Assembly (NCBI GenBank): GCA_945902075.1 | Contig: CAMDMA010000020.1 | Location: 1-61,666 of the forward strand | Origin: Candidatus Kuenenia stuttgartensis | GTDB taxonomy: Bacteria; Planctomycetota; Phycisphaerae; Phycisphaerales; SM1A02 | Length of the DNA: 61,666 nucleotides | Direction: 5' to 3' | In this document: positions 11,643 to 23,055 of the stretch, in pieces | Position numbering within the stretch: position 1 is the first letter of the stretch | Layout: each line of letters begins with the position of its first letter | Position numbers and translations under genes: made by a program | The notes under the pieces: generated by a model | Databases searched by the model: none | What the model saw: only the letters and a program-made list of their open reading frames with translations | Told to the model about the DNA's origin: nothing

Positions 11643-12689
11643 TCAAGCGGTATGTGGCTCAGTTGCTGCGGCGTGGATCGAACGCGCGGCAGCGTCGATA
11701 TCGGTGGCGGATACATCGAGGTGTGTCACCATGCGAACACGCCGAGGCCCCATCGGGATCGCGGCGACGTGATAACGAGCAAGCCGTGCGCAGAACTCTG
11801 ACGCAGTCCCGAGGCGCTGGTCTAGAGAAAAGAAAACCATGTTGGTCGGTACCTCATCGGGTGTGCCTTCGAGCATCAGGCCAGGAATCTCGGCGATGAA
11901 CCTTGCAAGAGCTCGCGCATTGGCGTGATCGTCTGCGAGGCGTACGACATGGTGATCAAGCGCATGAATTGCCGCGGCAGCGAGAAGGCCAGATTGCCGC
12001 ATGGCCCCCCCAAACATTTTGCGGAAACGCCGTGCACGCGCGATGAGCTTCGTGCTGCCAGCAAGTGCGCTTCCAACAGGTGCGCCAAGGCCCTTCGAGA
12101 AGCACACCGAAACACTATCCACGTGTTGCGTGAATGAAGTTGGTGCGATGTTGAGTGCGACGCATGCGTTCATCAAACGCGCGCCGTCGATGTGCACGTG
12201 AAGTCCACAATCGCGGCCCGCTGCAGCAACAGCGGCAAATTGTGCAACGGGCCAAACAGTGCCGCCGCCCTTGTTGTGGGTGTTTTCCATGACGAGCATT
12301 CGAGAGACAGGATTGTGTTGATCACGATTGCGAATCGCTGTGCGGACCTGCTCTGGTTCGAAGAGCCCGCGTGGGCCATCGAGCGGTGCAATCATGCAGC
12401 CGGACAGTGCCGCAGGGGCGCCAGTCTCGTAATGAATGATGTGACTCTCTCGGTGGGCGATGATCTCGTCGCCCGGCTCGCAGATCGAGCGGATCGCAAG
12501 TTGATTCGCCATGGTTCCAGAGGGAACGAAGAGCGCGGCCTCCGTACCAAGAAGAGCCGAGATTTTGGCCTCAAGGGCCTGCACCGTGGGTTCGTCACCG
12601 AGAACATCATCGCCAAGTGGGGCGGCCATCATGGCCTCGCGCATCGCCTGGGTCGGTCGTGTGACGGTGTCGCTACGAAGATCAATCAT
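11643..12689 (-). CDS. ltaE: Low-specificity L-threonine aldolase
   Basis: A 348-residue PLP-dependent fold-type I aldolase that cleaves L-threonine or L-allo-threonine to glycine and acetaldehyde. The N-terminus [20 protein letters not shown] and [11 protein letters not shown] are diagnostic. The PLP-binding Lys sits in [14 protein letters not shown], and the Asp of [11 protein letters not shown] contacts the cofactor ring. Length is normal. It leads the minus-strand operon aldolase-HAD-M29. The start at 12689 has no SD, but TACCAT lies 8 nt upstream. Confidence 0.95.
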
Positions 12690-12697
12690 GGGGGCGG

Positions 12698-12703
12698 ATG
12701 GTA
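12698..12703 (-). promoter_or_regulatory. -10-like TACCAT, near-leaderless geometry
   Basis: TACCAT on the minus strand ends 8 nt before the ltaE ATG at 12689. The flanks CGTACCAT match the element before pabB. Confidence 0.5.
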
Positions 12704-12848
12704 CGGATCGCGGACGGACGCGGCGTTGATCGCGAAAGCATGCAGGTTTGATGGGCTTTTCTCTGTGCACCAAAGGGATCGCTGCAGCACATGTCCGAGA
12801 ATGCCGATGATGCAACGAATGAAGCAAGGCCTGCAGCGAGGGATAAAA

Positions 12849-15656
12849 ATGTCGAAGAGGCAGCCGAGCACCGTCAGCCCTTTATCGTGGGCTCGCACCG
12901 CGATTTACTCGTCTTTTTGCACGTCAATGTGCACGACGGCGATCGCGTTTGGTCAGGCGGAGTTGGTAGGCGGCATGCAGGATCCACGGGAGGCGAGCGT
13001 GCCGCGACGGTTGCTCGCACGCTTTGATTTCGAGGAAAACGCGACGTTTCCGATGGAATTGCCGGCTGGGTGGGCGCGTGTTCTTTCGGAAAGACCTTCT
13101 GGGAATGCCGACGGCACGAACGCTGTGGCCAAGTCCCGAGAGAAGTCTTTGGGTGTTCCAGACCTTCCGAACTTTGGGTCGGTCAAAGCGGAGGCGGGTG
13201 CTGGTCGAGGCCACAGTCACTGGTCGCTTCGGTTTGTCGTGGATGGCGCATCGATAGCGGTTTCAAGCGATCCCTCGCGCGTTCCCGTTGCTGTTGGCGC
13301 CCAGATCGCGGTAACTGCGTGGGCTCGTACGAAGGATCTGAAATTCGCGAACGTTCGACTTTCTTTACAATTTTGCGACGAGAATGCGACGCCAATCGGG
13401 CTCATTTACGCGAGCGAGTTGCTCCGGAGCGAGTCGGACTGGCGACAGCTTCGCATTGAGCCACCACCGGCACCCACGGGTGCGCGGGGGGTTTCGCTTT
13501 GGCTCGAAGTCGTTCAGCCGCGCTCGTTGAAGTCGAGCGACGAATCTCGTTTTGCTGTGACACAGCCGGACATTGCAGGAAGCGCGCTGTTCGACGACAT
13601 CGAGGTTTGGCAGATGCCTACGGTGGCATTCGAAGCGGATGGGCTGGGAGTCGTCGAACCCGGCGCGAAGGCAACGCTCACGTTGCGCTGTAATGATCCT
13701 GCTTCCGGCACGACGAGCGCGGTGGTGCGCGTGCGTGATGCAACCGGCGCGACCGTCCACAGCGCAAGCCTCGAAGTGCCACCCGATCGTGGAGTTTTGC
13801 TTGAGATGCCGCAGCTTCCGACGGGCTGGTACGAGGCAGAATCACGATTTTCAGCGGGAAATGAGCTGATTGCCAATCGGCGCGCACGGTTTGCTGTGCT
13901 GCCACGCGATCCATTTGAGCCTGATGAGCCGCCGCGTTTCGGCGCATCGCTTGGAGCGGGAGCGATGCCGATCGAACCCGCGGTAGATCTCGCGCGGGCG
14001 GCGTTCGTCGTGCTTCCGATCTGGGAGTCCACCACTGACACGCGTCAGTCCAAGCATGAAGTCGACCTCTTGCGAGTGAAGGTTGCGGCGTTGCTTGATC
14101 GCCGCGTTGAGCCGATGTTCCGGATCATGGGTGTCCCGGTGACGCTTGCGCGCGAACAGCGCATCGACACGGCAGATACGCTCGCACTCTTTGCGCTCGA
14201 GGAAAGTCGCTGGCGGCCGACGCTCGAGCCGTGGCTGCTTGCATTTGGGCAGCAGGTTGAGCAGTGGTTTATCGCTGATGAGCCGGTTGAGGCGACCCGT
14301 GCGGACATGTCGGAACGGGTTGAGACGCTCTCTCGCGCACTCGAAAATGCCATCGCAGGGCCGGCGATTGGTCTGCCGTGGTCGCCGTCGGAACCGCTTG
14401 TCGAGCCACTTGCTTCCGTGCTCAATCGCGGGCGGCACACCCTCGAAATTGTCGCGGATCCTGCGTGGCGGGAGAGTTCGGGCGAGATGTACGCGGGTCT
14501 GCCCACGGGTCCGCGCGCGATGGTTCGAATCGTGCCGCTTCTTCCCGGCAGTGTGGACGATCATGAGCGGGCGATCGATCTTGCCTTGCGAGCGATCGAC
14601 GCATGGCGCGCGGGGATCGACAACATCGCAGTTGACGTTCGTGCGGAGTCGCTTCCACTGATACCTGGTCCGCCGCTTGAACTCGCCGCCTGGAGGCAAG
14701 TTTCGACGCGCCTTTGCGGACGAAGGTTTGTGGCGGAAATCCCGGTCAAAGTAGGAATCCGGGCGCTTCTTGCCGACGGTCCGCGTGGACCTATGCTCGC
14801 GATGTGGAATGAAGGTGCCGAGGTCTTGTCGGAGGTGGCGGTTGATCTCGGGACCAGCGCCGTCTTCGCGACGGATCTTTGGGGTCGCGGATCAAAAATC
14901 GATCCGACGGCACGCGGGCACCTGTTACAGGTTGGTCGCGAACCGCTGTTCGTCGAGGGTGTGAGTCGCGAAATGTGCCTACTTCGAAGCGGTTTCCGTG
15001 CAAATCCAGTTTTTGCTGTCGCGCGACGTGCTGCTCAGGAAGGTGTCCTCGTTCTCGCGAATCCGTGGAGCGTTCCAATGAGCGGCGTGCTCACGATTGC
15101 CGCGCCAGATGTGCTCGGTTTGTCTCCGAAGACGCATCGATTCACGATCGAGGCGCTTGGTGAAGCGCGGCTTCCGGTGCAATTCAGTGTCCCGCGCTCG
15201 ATGGCTGCGGGTGAGACATTGGTGCGCGTCGATATCGACGCGACCGCGATTGAACCGTTTCGTGCTTCACTTCAGGCACCGCTTGAAGTCGGTTACCGCG
15301 ATGTTGCCATCGAGTCGTCGTGGCGGCTTGCACGTTCGATTGAGAGCGGCGCGATTGATCTCGTGCTCACCCTCAAGGTAGCCAACGTGAGCGCAAATCC
15401 GGTGGATATTGAGGCATTTGCGGTTGCAGATGGCTACACGCAGAGCAAGAAACCGATCACCGGACTTGCCCCTGGCGCAACTGCGGTGCGAGTTTTTCAC
15501 TTCGCCGACGGTGCGCGAAGGCTATCTGGGCGCGACATTCGAGCAGGCGTACATGATGCGGAGGCCGATGCGCGGCAACTTCGCCGCATCGCCATTCCGC
15601 CGCTGCTTCCGCCTGCGGAGTCGGTGGTCGGCGTACCCGACGAGGCAGCGCGCTGA
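12849..15656 (+). CDS. Large secreted protein of unknown function
   Basis: A 935-residue protein. Residues 1-37 look like a signal peptide ending near AIAFGQA. Residues about 55-260 look like a beta-sandwich, carbohydrate-binding-type module (LLARFDFEEN...WSLRFVVDG...VAVTAWARTKD... SALFDDIEVWQ). A middle part of about 350 residues mixes helices and strands (RAAFVVLPIWESTTD, QWFIADEP, NIAVDVRAESLPL) in a manner that could be a TIM barrel like a glycoside hydrolase, but no catalytic pair can be named. The last 250 residues look like Ig/NEW3-type beta domains (GVLVLANPWSVPMSGVL, DLVLTLKVANVSANPVDI). The ATG was chosen for the AGGGA SD five nt upstream and the signal peptide. Function is not recognised; polysaccharide binding or cleavage is a guess. 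Confidence 0.75.
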   Translation: MSKRQPSTVSPLSWARTAIYSSFCTSMCTTAIAFGQAELVGGMQDPREASVPRRLLARFDFEENATFPMELPAGWARVLSERPSGNADGTNAVAKSREKSLGVPDLPNFGSVKAEAGAGRGHSHWSLRFVVDGASIAVSSDPSRVPVAVGAQIAVTAWARTKDLKFANVRLSLQFCDENATPIGLIYASELLRSESDWRQLRIEPPPAPTGARGVSLWLEVVQPRSLKSSDESRFAVTQPDIAGSALFDDIEVWQMPTVAFEADGLGVVEPGAKATLTLRCNDPASGTTSAVVRVRDATGATVHSASLEVPPDRGVLLEMPQLPTGWYEAESRFSAGNELIANRRARFAVLPRDPFEPDEPPRFGASLGAGAMPIEPAVDLARAAFVVLPIWESTTDTRQSKHEVDLLRVKVAALLDRRVEPMFRIMGVPVTLAREQRIDTADTLALFALEESRWRPTLEPWLLAFGQQVEQWFIADEPVEATRADMSERVETLSRALENAIAGPAIGLPWSPSEPLVEPLASVLNRGRHTLEIVADPAWRESSGEMYAGLPTGPRAMVRIVPLLPGSVDDHERAIDLALRAIDAWRAGIDNIAVDVRAESLPLIPGPPLELAAWRQVSTRLCGRRFVAEIPVKVGIRALLADGPRGPMLAMWNEGAEVLSEVAVDLGTSAVFATDLWGRGSKIDPTARGHLLQVGREPLFVEGVSREMCLLRSGFRANPVFAVARRAAQEGVLVLANPWSVPMSGVLTIAAPDVLGLSPKTHRFTIEALGEARLPVQFSVPRSMAAGETLVRVDIDATAIEPFRASLQAPLEVGYRDVAIESSWRLARSIESGAIDLVLTLKVANVSANPVDIEAFAVADGYTQSKKPITGLAPGATAVRVFHFADGARRLSGRDIRAGVHDAEADARQLRRIAIPPLLPPAESVVGVPDEAAR

Positions 15657-16440: not shown

Positions 16441-19400
16441 ATGGCCACCAGTCCGCACACGCCCCTCAATAGCCCGACCCGATTGATCATTGGGCCAGAC
16501 GCAAACTTGCTTGATCGAAATCTCCAGTCACTTGGGGAGCGGAATCTTGATGTTGCGAACGCGATCCGAGCTGCGACACCCGCTCAGGTCGAGTGGAGCA
16601 TTGCTGCGGATGGCTCTCGGGTGGCGACCCTCGATGGCCGCGCACTCGCCTCGCGTCATCAGCCACGCACGGAGGCAGTCAATTTCGCTGATGCCACCGA
16701 CCTCCGCGATCGTGCTGTCATCGTCGTGCTTGGATTTGGGCTTGGCTATCACGTGATGGAGTTTTGCGAGCGGCTTGGGCGGTCCGGACTTGTGGTGGTT
16801 CTTGAGCCGGATATTGCCTTGTTGCGGGCCGTGCTCGCGGAGATTGATTGCACAGTTGCATTCAATAAGGCAAACATTTTGTTCTTCCGAGGTGACGAAC
16901 AGGCCGGCAGATATGCCGAGCGATTTGCTGGAACCGAGGGCGTACTCATCCAGGGCGTCCAGCTCGTTGAGCATCCCGCGAGTCGATCTCGTGTCGCGCC
17001 CTTTGCAAAAGAATTCGCGCAGTGCATCACCGAAACGGTGCGCGGTGCCCGCGTCACGGCCGCGACAGGACTTGCGCGGAGCGCCCAAACAATCCGCTCA
17101 ATCCTCGGCAATGCACGTCACTACATCGGAGGAGAAGGACTCGCGCCGATCGAGGGAATCGCGAAGGGTCGCCTCGGCATCGTCGTGAGCGCGGGGCCCA
17201 GTCTTCGGCGAAATCTACACCTCCTCGCAGCACCCGGTGTGCGCGAGCACTGTGTGATCGTTGCCACGCAGACAGTACTGAAACCGCTACTTGCCGAGGG
17301 AATCAAGCCACACTTTGTCGCCGCGCTCGATTGGCATCGCATTTCAAAGCGTTTTTATGAAGGTTTGCGAGAGAAGGATGTCGCAGAGACGACGCTGGTC
17401 CTCGACCCGCAGGCCAATGCCGTCATCGCAGCGAGTTACCCCGGACCGATCCGAACCATCGCAGCGCCACATCTTGACGCACTGCTCGGACCGCTCGCGC
17501 GCGACATGGGTCGACTCCCCGCAGGCGCGACTGTTGCCCACCTCTGCTACCAGATCGCGCGTTATCTCGGCTGCGATCCTGTAGCGATGATCGGACAGGA
17601 TCTCGGATTCACCGATGGTGTCTACTACGCGCGCGGAACTGCAATCGATGAAGTGTGGGCACCCGAGCTAAATCCGTTCAACACGATGGAAAATCTTGAG
17701 TGGTCGCGTATTGCACGCCATCGCTCGCATCTCGTGAAACGACGCGATGTCCACGGGAAGTCGATTTTTACGGATGCGCAGATGGAGACATATCTGCAGC
17801 GATTTGAGTACTTTTTCTTGCAGGACGAGCGGCGTGGGTTGCGCACGATCGATGCCACGGAGGGCGGTGTCCGGAAGTCCGGCACTGAAGTGCTCACGCT
17901 CGCGGAGACGCTTGCCGCGTATGCAACCGAGTGCGTTCCAGAGATTCCTCTTGCATCGCGCACTGTTGATGAAGGCCGAATCAAGCTGGCTTCAAAGCGA
18001 CTGCGAGAGGTTGAGGAAGATGTGCGTGTCATCCGAACCGCATCGAAACGGACAGGCGATGCGCTCGCGCAGTTCACCGGTGCGACGCCGCGTTCAGAGC
18101 CTGAAGAAAAGCTATGGAAGACGATCGAGAGTGAGCGTGGCAAAGTTTCGCAGCGACTTGAAACACTGAGAATTCTCGACGAGTTCAGTCAAGTTGGTGT
18201 ACTCAAGCGGGCCAAGGCTGATCGGCGCATTGAGCAAACTCGTGACATTGCAGCCGGGGAGAAGCAGCGACTTCAATTCGAGCGCGATCTCGTCAATGTG
18301 CGTTGGATTGAGGAGACTGCAGACGAGTACCTCTCCATGCTCGCCGCAGCAATTGCGCGTCTTGAGTGCCGTGATGGATCTCGTGCAACGCTCGTCGAGG
18401 ATGATGAAGCGATTGTGGCCGCGAAGGTTGACGGCGCACTTGGTCGTGCGCTCGGTGAATCTGGTGTCGCCGTTCAAGTGCGCGCTGCGTTTATTGTTCC
18501 AATCGATCCGTGGCGAGGTGGACTCGGAACTCCGCGAAGCCTCGCAGAAACGATCGCAGGGCGACCGGTCATTCAGTGGACCTTGGAACGGCTCGGTCGA
18601 TCGCATGAGGCCGTTTCAATCGTGCTTCTGGTCCCTGAGGGGTATGACATCGATGGCTTACTCGACCGAAAGCGTATTGGGTTGCCGATCGAGATCCATC
18701 GCACAGAGGGCTCGCCGTTTGGACCGGAGCGCACGGCGATCGCGGCGGCAAGATTGTGGAGCGATAGTTCATGGAGAGGCGGCATCGCCGGGCTCACCTG
18801 CTACGACGAGATTCTCGCTGCACGCGCGTCGGTCGCGGCAATGGAGCGCTTCGGAATCACAGCAGCGATTCTTGTGGGCCCAGACTGGCCGCTTGTTTCA
18901 GTGACCGGAGAGATTGGCTGCGACGCATTGGTCCGTCGCCACCGTACCCGGCCTGAACTCTTACGCGTCGTCTTTGATCAATCACCACCTGGGCTTTCGG
19001 GCATTGTGATTGAGCGTTCGCTGATGCAGGAACTTGCCCGTGGGGGGCGACACGCCTCCATCGGATGGATGCTCGCGTATGAGCCGTCACGCCCACAACA
19101 GGATCCAATCTCGAAAGATATCTGCGTCCAAATCGACCACGTTGTCCGAAGATCGTTTGTGCGAGGGATCTTCGATACGCCGCGCAATATGACACGTATG
19201 CGCCGTGCGATCGAGCCGGGGCTCAGCGAGCATGGAGGTGGTATTGCGGATATCGATCCAATCTCTGCGGTCAAGATGTTGGAGCACCAACTCTTCGACA
19301 CGGTTCCGTACTACACGCCGCAGCAGTTGATTGTCGAGTTAAATACTGGCCGCCAGGGTTCAGGTGCGTCAAGTCCGCATCGCATGGGCTCGGTACAACG

Positions 19401-20157
19401 CGCCGTTATGACGGAGCGAAGATTTGCCAAAATCGTTGAGCAAGTTGCGGAGAGTCGAGACTGTGTGATGACTTTCGCTGGTGCTGGAGATCCACTCCTC
19501 CATCCGGACGTTGCAAATTTTGTCCGTATGGCGAAGAGCGCGGGGGTTCGAGGGGTGCACGTTCGCACGGAGCTCGTCGCTGATGCGGCAACAATCGCTT
19601 CGATCATTGAAGCCGGCGTTGATGCGATTAGTGTTGAACTTGATGCGGACACCAGCGAAACGTATCGACGCATGCATGGAGTGAATCGGTTTCAAGACGT
19701 CATCGCAAACATTGAGCGGATTTTCTCGGCGCGCCAGCTGTTCGCGGGTACCGGTGGAACTGCGTATGCCGTCCCGTGGATCGTGCCTCGACTTCAGCGT
19801 CGCCTTGAAAGCTACGAAGACATTGACACATTCTTTGATCGCTGGCAGCACATCCTTGGAACGGCGGTGATTGAGGGTGCTCCACCATTTGAAGATTCCG
19901 CGGAGAATCCGTCGGTTCCCCTTGCAAGCGCGCTATCTCCATCATCAGCGATGTGGCGTGAGATGTTGCGGAGGATGCTTATTTTGTCCGACGGGTCGGT
20001 CCCCTTGTCAGAACTTGATCTTCGCGGGGATCGGATTTTTGGTCATGTTGATCGTGGGCCGATGTTGCAGTTGTGGCGCGATCTTGTTGCGCGACGAAAG
20101 CAGATTCGTCGCGATAGCGGCGAGGGTCACCAAGATTTGAGGACAAGGACGCCATGA
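16441..20157 (+). CDS. Maf/DUF115 glycosyltransferase fused to a nucleotidyltransferase-like and a cysteine-less radical SAM/SPASM-like region
   Basis: A 1238-residue multidomain protein heading the nonulosonic-acid operon. Residues about 90-130 hold a Rossmann-like VLGFGLGYHVMEF. Residues about 220-400 form the DUF115/MAF_flag10 region (GIVVSAGPSLRRNL, DWHRISKRFYEGL, AMIGQDLGFTDGVYYARG), the family that transfers nonulosonic acids to flagellin. A charged helical linker spans about 500-680. Residues about 682-880 resemble a cytidylyltransferase (IPV-type strand, RGGLGTPRSLAETIAGRPVI). From about 957 the order follows radical SAM: a strand at the cluster position, GAGDPLLHP at about 1014-1022, GVDAISVELD, then a SPASM-like end (MLILSDGSVPLSELDLRG, about 1179-1196). 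The CxxxCxxC positions are Gly970, Ser974 and Ser977, so no 4Fe-4S cluster is expected. The start lacks an SD; ATG 16303 is an alternative. Confidence 0.8.
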   Translation: MATSPHTPLNSPTRLIIGPDANLLDRNLQSLGERNLDVANAIRAATPAQVEWSIAADGSRVATLDGRALASRHQPRTEAVNFADATDLRDRAVIVVLGFGLGYHVMEFCERLGRSGLVVVLEPDIALLRAVLAEIDCTVAFNKANILFFRGDEQAGRYAERFAGTEGVLIQGVQLVEHPASRSRVAPFAKEFAQCITETVRGARVTAATGLARSAQTIRSILGNARHYIGGEGLAPIEGIAKGRLGIVVSAGPSLRRNLHLLAAPGVREHCVIVATQTVLKPLLAEGIKPHFVAALDWHRISKRFYEGLREKDVAETTLVLDPQANAVIAASYPGPIRTIAAPHLDALLGPLARDMGRLPAGATVAHLCYQIARYLGCDPVAMIGQDLGFTDGVYYARGTAIDEVWAPELNPFNTMENLEWSRIARHRSHLVKRRDVHGKSIFTDAQMETYLQRFEYFFLQDERRGLRTIDATEGGVRKSGTEVLTLAETLAAYATECVPEIPLASRTVDEGRIKLASKRLREVEEDVRVIRTASKRTGDALAQFTGATPRSEPEEKLWKTIESERGKVSQRLETLRILDEFSQVGVLKRAKADRRIEQTRDIAAGEKQRLQFERDLVNVRWIEETADEYLSMLAAAIARLECRDGSRATLVEDDEAIVAAKVDGALGRALGESGVAVQVRAAFIVPIDPWRGGLGTPRSLAETIAGRPVIQWTLERLGRSHEAVSIVLLVPEGYDIDGLLDRKRIGLPIEIHRTEGSPFGPERTAIAAARLWSDSSWRGGIAGLTCYDEILAARASVAAMERFGITAAILVGPDWPLVSVTGEIGCDALVRRHRTRPELLRVVFDQSPPGLSGIVIERSLMQELARGGRHASIGWMLAYEPSRPQQDPISKDICVQIDHVVRRSFVRGIFDTPRNMTRMRRAIEPGLSEHGGGIADIDPISAVKMLEHQLFDTVPYYTPQQLIVELNTGRQGSGASSPHRMGSVQRAVMTERRFAKIVEQVAESRDCVMTFAGAGDPLLHPDVANFVRMAKSAGVRGVHVRTELVADAATIASIIEAGVDAISVELDADTSETYRRMHGVNRFQDVIANIERIFSARQLFAGTGGTAYAVPWIVPRLQRRLESYEDIDTFFDRWQHILGTAVIEGAPPFEDSAENPSVPLASALSPSSAMWREMLRRMLILSDGSVPLSELDLRGDRIFGHVDRGPMLQLWRDLVARRKQIRRDSGEGHQDLRTRTP

Positions 20158-20876
20158 GCGATTGCACGAACGACAGCGAAGTTCTTGCGGTGGTGATAGG
20201 TCGTGCCGGGAGTAAGGGACTTCCGCGAAAAAATGCACTTCCTGTTGCGGGAATTGCGATGATCGCTCACACAATCCGATTTGCGCACGCGTCAACGCGC
20301 ATCTCTCGTGTCGTTGTTTCAACCGATGGCGAGGAGATCGCAGCGATCGCGCGCCAGGAGGGAGTCGACGTACTCCTGCGACCGGAGAGTCTTTCGAGTG
20401 ATACCGCGACCGTCGATGCCGCAGTACGACATGCGGTTGAGGCGAGCGGCTCACAAGCGAAGATGATCGTCATTCTCTATGGAAACGTGCCAGTTCGTCC
20501 AGCCGATCTCGCGGATCGAGCAATCGCTCGGCTTCGTGAGAGCGGTGCGGACAGCGTTCAGAGTTACTATCGCGTTGGTAAGACGCATCCGTACTGGATG
20601 TCGAGGATCGGTGTCGACGGTCGGATCTCGCAGTTTGTCGAGAATCAAATCTATCGCCGACAGGAACTGCCGCCATTGTTTATGCCTGATGGCGGTGTCA
20701 TCGCGGTGACTCGCGCCAGTCTCTTTGATGTCCGCGATGGTGAGCCGCATGCATTCTTCGGGCGCGACCGCAGAGGTATCGAAACCAACGAGGGTGACGT
20801 GATCGATGTCGATAGTGCGCTTGATCTTGCTGTCGCCGAAGCGATTCTCCGACATCGCGAGGGAGTGTCTGCATGA
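20154..20876 (+). CDS. neuA: CMP-nonulosonic acid synthetase (cytidylyltransferase, NeuA type)
   Basis: A 240-residue enzyme predicted to activate a nonulosonic acid with CTP. The nucleotide-binding signature is VIGRAGSKGLPRKN (about residues 15-28), and VVVSTDGEEIAAIA and LLRPESLSSDTATV follow as in NeuA. The Asp pair in NEGDVIDVDSALDL is at the usual metal-binding place. Its ATG overlaps the stop of the fusion gene by 4 nt (ATGA), and its own stop overlaps neuB the same way. The exact sugar (sialic, legionaminic, pseudaminic) cannot be read from sequence alone. Confidence 0.9.
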   Translation: MSDCTNDSEVLAVVIGRAGSKGLPRKNALPVAGIAMIAHTIRFAHASTRISRVVVSTDGEEIAAIARQEGVDVLLRPESLSSDTATVDAAVRHAVEASGSQAKMIVILYGNVPVRPADLADRAIARLRESGADSVQSYYRVGKTHPYWMSRIGVDGRISQFVENQIYRRQELPPLFMPDGGVIAVTRASLFDVRDGEPHAFFGRDRRGIETNEGDVIDVDSALDLAVAEAILRHREGVSA

Positions 20877-21922
20877 ATATGAATCCAGAACCATTCTTTC
20901 TCGGTGGTCGTGAGGTCGCACCCGGACGCACGCCGTTTGTCATCGCTGAGATCGGCGTGAATCACGATGGGAACATCGAGCGCGCCCGTGAACTCGTTCA
21001 TGCAGCTCGCGCAGCTGGTGCAGATGCGGCAAAATTTCAGATGTTTGACGCATCGATGTTGATGTCGCTCGATTCTGTACTTGCTGTCTATCAGCGCGAA
21101 CGCGGCGCTCGGGATCCCCGCGAATTGCTGCAAGGTCTCCAACTTGATCCGTACGAGCTCGGAAGACTTGCAGAGGAATGCGTTTCGATCGGTATTGTGC
21201 CAATGGTGACCGTTTTTTCATTGCCGCTTGTCCAAGTCGCTCGCGAGCAGGGGTGGCATGCGTTCAAGATGGCATCCCCAGATCTCGTGAATCTGCCGCT
21301 TCTCCGTGCGATTGCAGAGTTGGGAAAGCCAATGGTGGTCTCAACTGGTGCGGCGATGCGAGAAGAAGTTGTACAGGCAGCGAATTGGCTTGCAGATGTG
21401 CGTCAACTTGCGTTTTTACAGTGCACCTCGAGTTACCCAACGCCTGATGATCACGCAGCGATTGGTGGAATGCACGAGATACGTTTGCTCGCGCGGCGAA
21501 TTGTTGGTTACAGCGACCACACTGCAGTTGTGGACTCTGGTGGTATCGCAGTAGCCGCAGGTGCTTGTATTCTGGAGAAGCATCTGACCTACGACCGCGC
21601 GGCTCCGGGTCCGGACCACGCAGCGAGCCTTGATCCTGCGCAATTCGGTGCGTATGTCGCGCTCGCGCGTCGTGCTGCTCGCATGATCGGTGCTCACACA
21701 AAAGAGTTGCAGGAAGTTGAGCGGGATGTTCGGCGGGTGAGCCGTCAATCGCTTGTCGCTACGCATGATCTTGTGGCGGGGAGCGTTCTTGCACAGACAG
21801 ATCTCTGCGTGAAACGCCCAGGAACAGGGATTTCTGCGAGTCTGCTGCATTCGATCGTTGGTCGAACCCTTGCACGTGCGGTGGCTGCAGATCGAGTGCT
21901 CATGGCTGAGGATCTCGCGTGA
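20873..21922 (+). CDS. neuB: N-acetylneuraminate synthase-like (NeuB/SpsE family)
   Basis: A 349-residue TIM-barrel synthase that condenses phosphoenolpyruvate with an N-acetyl amino sugar. Features: FVIAEIGVNHDGNIERA near residue 22, ADAAKFQMFD with the PEP-contact Lys, AFKMASPDLVNLPLL, VSTGAAMREEV, LQCTSSYPTP and GYSDHT (metal/PEP site). The C-terminal 60 residues (SRQSLVATHDLVAGSVL...KRPGTGISASLLHSIVGRTL) are the antifreeze-like SAF domain that closes the active site. ATGA overlap with neuA and GTGA overlap with neuC indicate translational coupling. Confidence 0.93.
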   Translation: MNMNPEPFFLGGREVAPGRTPFVIAEIGVNHDGNIERARELVHAARAAGADAAKFQMFDASMLMSLDSVLAVYQRERGARDPRELLQGLQLDPYELGRLAEECVSIGIVPMVTVFSLPLVQVAREQGWHAFKMASPDLVNLPLLRAIAELGKPMVVSTGAAMREEVVQAANWLADVRQLAFLQCTSSYPTPDDHAAIGGMHEIRLLARRIVGYSDHTAVVDSGGIAVAAGACILEKHLTYDRAAPGPDHAASLDPAQFGAYVALARRAARMIGAHTKELQEVERDVRRVSRQSLVATHDLVAGSVLAQTDLCVKRPGTGISASLLHSIVGRTLARAVAADRVLMAEDLA

Positions 21923-23055
21923 GGCGGATCGCAGTTGTCACCGGCACTCGCGCGGAATGGGGCCTGCTCGCGCCGGTTTGTGATGCGATTCGATCTCGTA
22001 CCGATCTCATACTTGAGCTCTGCGCGGGCGGTGCACACCTCCTCTCGCAGTCTTCTGGCGCGGCACCGACTATTGCGGAGGTCGAAGCGTTTCGACACCA
22101 GAGGCTGCATCGGTTCTCCATGCAGTTTGACGGGGAAAGTGGTCGCAGCGCGGATGCATTGGCACTCGGTCGTGGTGTGACCCAGTGCGCGACGATTTTT
22201 GCCAACATTGCTCCGGACATCGTCGTCGTGCTCGGTGATCGCATTGAAGCTTTTGCGGCTGCAAGTGCAGCTTCTATTGCCGGAATTCGTGTCGCCCACA
22301 TTCATGGCGGAGATCGTGCAGAGGGGGTGGCCGACGAGGCGATGCGTCATGCGATCACAAAGCTTGCGCATATTCATTTTCCTGCGAGCGAAGAGAGTGC
22401 ATGGCGTATTGAGCGGATGGGTGAAAATCCGCGAAGCATCCATCTTGTCGGTTCGCCCGCGATTGACGCGCTGGCGTCGATTCCAGTTGCCACTGACGCT
22501 GAACACCGTGCGTGTGGTTCGCCGGACTACATATTCCTCATGCACCCAGTTGGCCGGAGTAATGAGGCCGAGGAGGTTGATGCGCGTGTCGTGCTCGAAG
22601 CGTTGTGTGCGCGCGGGCGCGTCCTCGCGCTTTCGCCAAACTCAGATCCTGGACGTGATGGCATCGCGCGTGCGATCGCGGTTCAGTCTTCGCGTGGCGA
22701 TCGAGTGTGTGGCATGGCGTATCTTTCACGCGCACAATTTGTTGGCTTACTTCAGCATCCGCGAGTGCAGGCGATTGTTGGGAATTCGAGCGCTGGACTC
22801 ATTGAGTGTGCTGCGCTTCGAGTTCGGGCCATCAATCTTGGTTCACGCCAAAATGGAAGAGAAAGGGCGGGAAACGTCATCGAGCTTCCGTTGGCAACGA
22901 CTGATGCTGCCCTCGCTGCTCTTGACAGTCTCCCGACAATGATGCCGAATGGAAAGCATCCGTTCGGTGACGGCGGCGCTGCGCCGCGCATTGCTGAGTT
23001 GCTCGCCCATTGCGATTTTTCGCAGCATCCGTGCACGAAACGCAACATGTACTAG
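21919..23055 (+). CDS. neuC: UDP-N-acetylglucosamine 2-epimerase, hydrolysing type (NeuC family)
   Basis: A 378-residue GT-B fold enzyme that should release an N-acetylmannosamine-type sugar from a UDP-HexNAc for NeuB. The start MRRIAVVTGTRAEWGLLAPV is the family signature (Trp replaces the usual Tyr after AE). IAPDIVVVLGDRIEAFAAA, VAHIHGGDRAEGVADEAMRHAI, and the UDP-binding IVGNSSAGLIECAAL with INLGSRQNGRERAGNVIEL follow. The GTG start overlaps the neuB stop by 4 nt. It is the last gene of the operon; the next gene begins 142 nt further with its own SD. Confidence 0.93.
   Translation: MRRIAVVTGTRAEWGLLAPVCDAIRSRTDLILELCAGGAHLLSQSSGAAPTIAEVEAFRHQRLHRFSMQFDGESGRSADALALGRGVTQCATIFANIAPDIVVVLGDRIEAFAAASAASIAGIRVAHIHGGDRAEGVADEAMRHAITKLAHIHFPASEESAWRIERMGENPRSIHLVGSPAIDALASIPVATDAEHRACGSPDYIFLMHPVGRSNEAEEVDARVVLEALCARGRVLALSPNSDPGRDGIARAIAVQSSRGDRVCGMAYLSRAQFVGLLQHPRVQAIVGNSSAGLIECAALRVRAINLGSRQNGRERAGNVIELPLATTDAALAALDSLPTMMPNGKHPFGDGGAAPRIAELLAHCDFSQHPCTKRNMY

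Follow-up and report, generated by a model that had tools for sequence, protein, structure and literature searches.

A radical SAM/SPASM fold without its cluster cysteines, fused to a Maf glycosyltransferase in a Phycisphaerales genome: a putative non-radical accessory module

The window analysed here is the whole stretch of 61,666 nucleotides of contig CAMDMA010000020.1 (GenBank assembly GCA_945902075.1, Candidatus Kuenenia stuttgartensis; order Phycisphaerales of the Planctomycetota). Its gene at 16441-20157 on the forward strand, a stop-free frame with a product of 1238 amino acids, encodes in one polypeptide, from the N to the C terminus, a Maf glycosyltransferase, a cytidylyltransferase fold and a radical SAM (S-adenosylmethionine)/SPASM fold; the last two (residues 685-1238) are referred to below as the module. 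The three cluster cysteines, which radical SAM enzymes need, are absent from this protein and from all the module-containing relatives examined. We consider it probable that the module is a non-radical accessory of Maf; that it acts by a putative hand-over of acceptor or donor is a tentative proposal, which may well be wrong, and the statement as a whole appears to us evenly balanced. The fusion protein may start further upstream: the open reading frame (ORF) as called begins at an earlier in-frame ATG (16303 vs 16441, forward strand), which adds 46 residues and gives a product of 1284 amino acids.

A radical SAM-like fold in this place had been predicted by an earlier note made from the sequence, and the modelling bears it out (the outcome of a model with no barrel did not arise). 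The barrel without cluster cysteines lies at residues 958-1160 (19312..19920, forward strand; borders approximate), where the profile Radical_SAM PF04055 matches residues 988-1097 with an E value of 1.6e-11, beginning at position 26 of the 166 of the profile. Together with MptE-like/Maf PF01973, it is one of the two Pfam matches above cut-off in the fusion protein. The model of the module, built from a 48-row alignment, has a mean predicted local distance difference test score (pLDDT) of 93.5 and a predicted template modelling score (pTM) of 0.93; the models of the Maf part and of the module lie at pLDDT 93-95. The second part of the module model (model residues 274-551) matches MoaA 2FB2 with Z 20.8 over 245 residues (root-mean-square deviation, rmsd, 2.9), SuiB with Z 20.5 and BlsE with Z 19.9. 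A barrel with a C-terminal tail is shared with the radical SAM/SPASM enzymes MoaA, SuiB, SkfB and the anaerobic sulfatase maturase (Z 18-21); unlike these enzymes, however, the module has no CxxxCxxC, carries GxGD in its commonest forms at the place of GGE, and in the window's clade lacks the SPASM cysteines as well.

The register of the cluster site was taken from a gapless alignment to six radical SAM proteins with CxxxCxxC, on which two aligners concur. Their cysteines align with Arg971, Gly975 and Ser978 in the former cluster loop (residues 966-978, 19336..19374, forward strand); the absence of cysteines had been noticed correctly, and the residues named for it (Gly970, Ser974 and Ser977) are replaced by this register. 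The module has four cysteines only (787, 827, 895 and 1008), none of them at a cluster or SPASM position. GAGDPLLHP (residues 1014-1022, 19480..19506, forward strand) stands in place of the GGE motif, which we take to be where radical SAM enzymes contact SAM; this segment, ISVELD and DGSVPLSELD..W, all reported before, are present in the translation. The SPASM-like tail (residues 1165-1238, 19933..20154, forward strand), aligned with four-Cys relatives, has lost its cysteines too (Trp1172, Ser1190, no CxxC), as had been claimed; Ser1190 was right, and the Met1171 given for the other position was wrong, the aligned residue being Trp1172.

The same absence extends to the relatives. Among 103 rows, the window included, none has CxxxCxxC in the loop or elsewhere in the module, and none has a cysteine at any of the three aligned columns; at the first of these columns Arg is found in 83 of the 103, and at the second Gly in 72 (gaps in 10 and 8, respectively). 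Unfused rows and rows from distant planctomycete families are among those without the site. The alignment of homologues thus gives a loss across the whole clade, a point that the earlier note had proposed to check, with no close homologue retaining an intact motif. The rows are the 109 matches of the A1 profile in the collected loci minus six fragments (L014, L103, L106, L108, L162 and L173), the window being L001. Outside this count stand shorter or repeated loci, seven copies from duplicate genomes (L071, L072, L078, L080, L083, L104 and L105) and six ORFs, one each in L165-L170, that match the radical SAM part only. All six of these ORFs have CxxxCxxC; they come from the 4 genomes inspected among the 28 (a hand count) of the phylum sample that match that part only. 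Since the A1 profile was built from rows without the cysteines, it may favour members that lack them. In the plasmid search three records match the radical SAM part only; their annotations name radical SAM proteins or proteins of the molybdenum cofactor.

Mean column identity is higher in the cluster loop than in the module both within the window's genus (0.88 vs 0.77) and in the standalone set (0.56 vs 0.43); in the distant set (0.20 vs 0.25) the loop is not conserved. Among stretches of its length, GxGDPLLHP is the best conserved in two sets, the standalone and the distant one; it ranks third of 530 in the set of other genera and just 121st of 544 within the window's genus. Because it stays conserved, a ligand pocket may persist in the barrel. 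Sequencing error or simple decay as the source of the missing cysteines was considered and rejected, given that 0 of the 103 rows carry them and that the loop is conserved in the genus and in the standalone set.

The SPASM cysteines have a different history. SPASM PF13186 is matched by 20 of 24 relatives (E <=0.01) and not by the window protein, and the four cysteines (C464, C482, C527 and C530 of A3) are retained in at least 90% of a diverse 24-member alignment. A quick tree of 83 of the 103 rows (20 near-duplicates or problem rows dropped), drawn from its midpoint and with several long branches, places the window in a 34-row clade with a support of 100 in the Shimodaira-Hasegawa-like approximate likelihood ratio test (SH-aLRT). 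This clade holds 34 of the 35 fused rows of the tree; the remaining one, L163, keeps the four-Cys pattern. The pattern is found in 41 of the 83 rows (34 split rows, 6 with no Maf in the locus and a single fused one) and is missing from all 34 rows of the window's clade and from 8 non-fused rows. Three loci (L146, L149 and L175), in which a long stop-to-stop frame merely overlaps Maf in another frame, were scored as unfused, and L030, with two overlapping ORFs, as fused. By parsimony the fused or unfused state changes 2 times and the SPASM pattern 4 times. The cysteine loss had been tied to the three-part fusion in the earlier note; this is not borne out, since unfused relatives across the phylum also lack CxxxCxxC, and the fusion is later by parsimony. 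The loss of the cluster cysteines is therefore not a feature of the fusion. As judged from the sequences, the loss of the radical site is older than the fusion, and the loss of the SPASM cysteines is a further change, separate from it.

The Maf part (residues 1-653, 16441..18399, forward strand) consists of an N-terminal Rossmann-like domain, an MptE/sialyltransferase-like core and a C-terminal helical domain. PF01973 (MptE-like/Maf_flag10 core) matches residues 221-392 (E 1.4e-30, 106.7 bits vs a cut-off of 34.6), the N-terminal Maf domain PF20157 matches weakly (15.4 bits, under the cut-off of 23.5), and the NCBIfam search gives PseD at residues 246-481 with 37.4 bits (cut-off 670). The model (window 16498-18384, 46-row alignment, pLDDT 94.7, pTM 0.91) matches Maf 5MU5 of Magnetospirillum magneticum with Z 22.1 (514 residues aligned between model 1-621 and chain 8-648, rmsd 6.9) and the CstII sialyltransferase with Z 10.2; the profile match to 5MU5 has an E value of 6.2e-14. 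The three-domain fold, PF01973 and an operon with NeuA, NeuB and NeuC are common to both proteins; unlike 5MU5, the fusion protein has about 585 additional C-terminal residues, which form two further folds. DUF115/Maf proteins are linked to nonulosonic acid glycosylation of flagellin. The Maf part looks complete by its fold and is a putative flagellin glycosyltransferase, and nonulosonate transfer is predicted from the context of NeuA, NeuB and NeuC and from the co-occurrence with flagellin.

The cytidylyltransferase-fold domain (residues 685-930, 18493..19230, forward strand) was delimited on the fold model, its borders being approximate. The first part of the module model (model residues 1-272) matches the Leptospira cytidylyltransferase 6OEW with Z 19.0 (214 residues, rmsd 3.2) and the 3-deoxy-D-manno-octulosonic acid (Kdo) activating enzyme, CMP-Kdo synthetase 1GQC (CMP, cytidine monophosphate), with Z 14.3. 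Its motifs are SWRGG (777), VGPDWP (Asp815) and DTPR (Asp912), and a GGLGTPR-like first loop is present in the window protein together with both Asp residues. The profile and fold matches taken together bear out the three-part architecture read from the sequence.

Other fusions of DUF115, nucleotidyltransferase-like and SPASM parts, which the earlier note had proposed to look for, do exist: 49 of the 103 module loci are fused to Maf, and 43 more have a Maf gene on the same strand of the locus. In the window, the fusion gene is followed on the forward strand by a NeuA/PseF-like CMP-nonulosonate cytidylyltransferase (20154..20876; PF02348 E 2.2e-20; PseF TIGR03584 92.7 bits, cut-off 205.7), whose start overlaps the stop of the fusion gene (ATGA), by the nonulosonate synthase NeuB (20873..21922; PF03102 E 2.6e-58; TIGR03569 286.9 bits, cut-off 399.65) and by NeuC, a UDP-GlcNAc (uridine diphosphate N-acetylglucosamine) 2-epimerase (21919..23055; TIGR03568 292.5 bits, above the cut-off of 235.9); by their coordinates, NeuB and NeuC each overlap the preceding gene. 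Over the collected loci, NeuA lies downstream of the module in 74 of the 98 with room for it, NeuB in 21 of 65 loci and NeuC in 38 of 64; the rule used may overlook a gene with a stop-to-stop frame that extends a long way upstream (NeuA in L003, L006 and L025 was recovered by tblastn). NeuA is the common neighbour within the order, and NeuB is often not next door; the distant loci mostly have no adjoining NeuA.

Of the 61 genomes sampled from the order, 52 carry the module, all 52 of which have flagellin and 49 of which have NeuB; it is found in none of the 7 genomes without flagellin, and PF01973 occurs in 48 of the 61 (the module match of G029, a fragment, is counted, and the weak partial match of G004, E 8.8e-4, is scored as absent). 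In the sample of 392 genomes of the phylum, 44 have the module and Maf, 1 the module only, 30 Maf only and 317 neither; the 45 module genomes were picked by hand as those in which a match, single or split in two, spans both halves, and G125 and G234 with partial matches were counted with them; one of the 44 (G341) has an eroded Maf only, and the Fisher tests on co-occurrence ignore kinship. All 26 Maf genomes of the order within this sample carry the module, which makes it a concrete candidate for an accessory of Maf.

We presume that the C-terminus of this Maf enzyme is a former two-domain accessory protein, similar to spiroSPASM, and that the fusion would make its pairing with Maf permanent. 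The radical SAM-like half would perform no radical chemistry, and the module would serve Maf as a specificity or hand-over module. Relatives of the barrel and the SPASM-like tail bind polypeptides; here the acceptor protein would be bound by these two parts, and CMP-sugar or CMP by the cytidylyltransferase-like half. Partners or attached domains that bring flagellin to a glycosyltransferase are described in two papers: GlfM, co-encoded with Maf-2, is needed for the ternary complex of Maf-2 and flagellin (as told in PMC13317340), and the N-terminal domain of FlmG binds flagellin (PMC7591256). By analogy, the module would play the part of GlfM, or of the flagellin-binding (tetratricopeptide repeat, TPR) domain of FlmG, without being related to them. 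According to PMC11339370, the C-terminal helical domain of a solved Maf weakly resembles flagellin chaperones, and a Clostridium Maf takes several donors, Kdo among them. A wider scenario seems to us somewhat unlikely: after the loss of its cluster site the scaffold would have become, across the phylum, a non-catalytic specificity factor that binds acceptor and CMP-sugar for a cytoplasmic protein glycosyltransferase; it would later have been fused to that enzyme and, in one lineage, have survived the loss of both sugar pathway and flagellum through a second role.

Several observations weigh against an accessory role bound to Maf and flagellin. Eleven of the 103 loci have no Maf in the examined stretch, sometimes owing to a contig end, and 2 flagellin-bearing genomes of the 61 lack the module. 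In the phylum sample, 30 of the 74 Maf genomes have no detectable module, so Maf is not generally dependent on it. The Maf part already has a helical C-terminal domain, which leaves some redundancy if the module binds the acceptor as well. The radical SAM-like half can also decay: several fused proteins of the f2 family (L055, L058, L061, L064 and L065) have lost part or all of the cluster loop and of the SPASM-like tail. Finally, three genomes of the window's family, G030, G341 and G403 (loci L066, L171 and L172), keep the module in fused proteins and have no NeuB match, the last two genomes having no flagellin match either. Of the 151 conserved columns of the Maf part, 15, 37 and 48 survive in them (10-32%, vs 84-98% in 14 intact relatives); the cytidylyltransferase-like part retains 57-71% (78-100% in intact relatives) and the radical SAM-like part 73-89% (91-100% in the 14 intact f1 rows); for the intact rows the columns were chosen by leaving one out, so that the denominators differ. 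By this measure the module outlives Maf in the three genomes, yet is somewhat relaxed itself. Its retention argues against a purely flagellin-bound role. It is the ground for a rival explanation by which the module has a job of its own beyond flagellin sialylation (e.g., regulation, or the handling of a different sugar or protein), its fusion to Maf being a matter of convenience. We think this unlikely, considering the relaxation just described and the Maf match in 44 of the 45 phylum-sample genomes that carry the module; moreover, the three rows are grouped at weak support (SH-aLRT 85, an open fork), so that the retention may be a single event. The "binding or docking module" proposed in the earlier note is compatible with the data, and docking to flagellin alone does not fit the retention without NeuB and, in two of the genomes, without flagellin.

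The cytidylyltransferase-like domain might instead be an active enzyme that makes the CMP-sugar and passes the donor to Maf within one polypeptide, the radical SAM-like half being structural only. The fold matches cited above agree with it, as do the two Asp residues, kept in at least 90% of the 48 A1 rows, the NTP_transf_3 match in 8 of 24 relatives (E <=0.01) and the gene order Maf-module-NeuB-NeuC, with no NeuA between, in L150:2089-7920 and L152:1912-7863. However, a separate NeuA overlaps the fusion gene in the window, the glycine-rich first loop is absent from L059, L062 and L063, the VGPDWP Asp is gone from 16 of the 17 distant rows L145-L161 (retained in L148 only), and CTP_transf_3 of Pfam has no match in the window protein and just 3 matches among 24 relatives. 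The adjoining NeuA, the loss of the loop in some rows and that of the first Asp in most distant rows make a working cytidylyltransferase less likely; we rate this explanation as rather unlikely. A non-radical iron-sulfur or zinc protein, in which the SPASM cysteines bind a sensing or supporting metal and the window's clade is degenerate, would account for the retention of the four cysteines among the 24 diverse members and in half or so of the tree (41 of 83 rows), but the pattern is missing from all 34 rows of the clade, though the module core is conserved in its f1 rows; this appears quite improbable. An unusual working radical SAM enzyme with displaced cysteines is scarcely credible: GxGDPLLHP is among the most conserved stretches in three of the four sets and the window module does have four cysteines, but all 103 rows lack CxxxCxxC in the module and have no cysteine at the aligned columns. 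With a non-radical accessory of Maf as the preferred reading, the findings suggest that an enzyme scaffold has been preserved next to a sugar transferase for work other than radical chemistry, and the radical SAM/SPASM fold has seemingly been retained and reshaped without its chemistry. The label "Radical_SAM" given by profile annotation would then mislead.

Concerning named families, the best NCBIfam match of the window protein is spiroSPASM TIGR04321 (residues 848-1213, 63.8 bits vs a cut-off of 250); the spiro-SPASM family named in the earlier note is thus a real one. The window protein covers model positions 127-481 and the relative L145 positions 75-506 of 510; all 24 relatives match the model, and it is the top match for the seven scored singly (71.4-159.5 bits, under the same cut-off). 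The homology extends along most of the model, but every one of these scores is below the curated cut-off, and unlike the spiroSPASM family the proteins here are planctomycete ones, the window's member being fused to Maf and lacking the SPASM cysteines. NCBIfam also holds a precedent of a named pseudo-radical SAM/SPASM family, TIGR04347, to which the module is likened by name and by a weak score (21.5 bits for the window protein vs a cut-off of 525; a weak match in 2 of 24 relatives). As both families are already named, the notion of SPASM-type proteins that do no radical chemistry has precedents. Text searches of the open-licence part of PubMed Central (PMC) returned nothing on spiro-SPASM, TIGR04321, pseudo-radical SAM or planctomycete nonulosonic flagellin glycosylation, and among the matches there for DUF115 with flagellin or for radical SAM pseudoenzymes no paper on this subject was seen by title. 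As far as these searches show, four features are new: that the module is fused to Maf, that it is linked to the operon throughout Phycisphaerales, that its cluster loop has been replaced in the whole clade, and that it has been retained where the sugar pathway was lost.

Some other genes near the module may be mentioned. In two distant loci with no Maf nearby, the module has a HAD-type phosphatase (PF12689) as its neighbour (L158:6226-7083 and L159:6359-6967, both on the reverse strand). Proteins adjoining the module in L153:3218-4225 and L157:3456-4439 (both on the reverse strand) have GNAT acetyltransferase matches in two stretches each. In the window, a frame of 1154 residues at 12192-15656 (forward strand) has no Pfam match; a relative, recognised by eye, lies upstream of the module in L066:484-3288.

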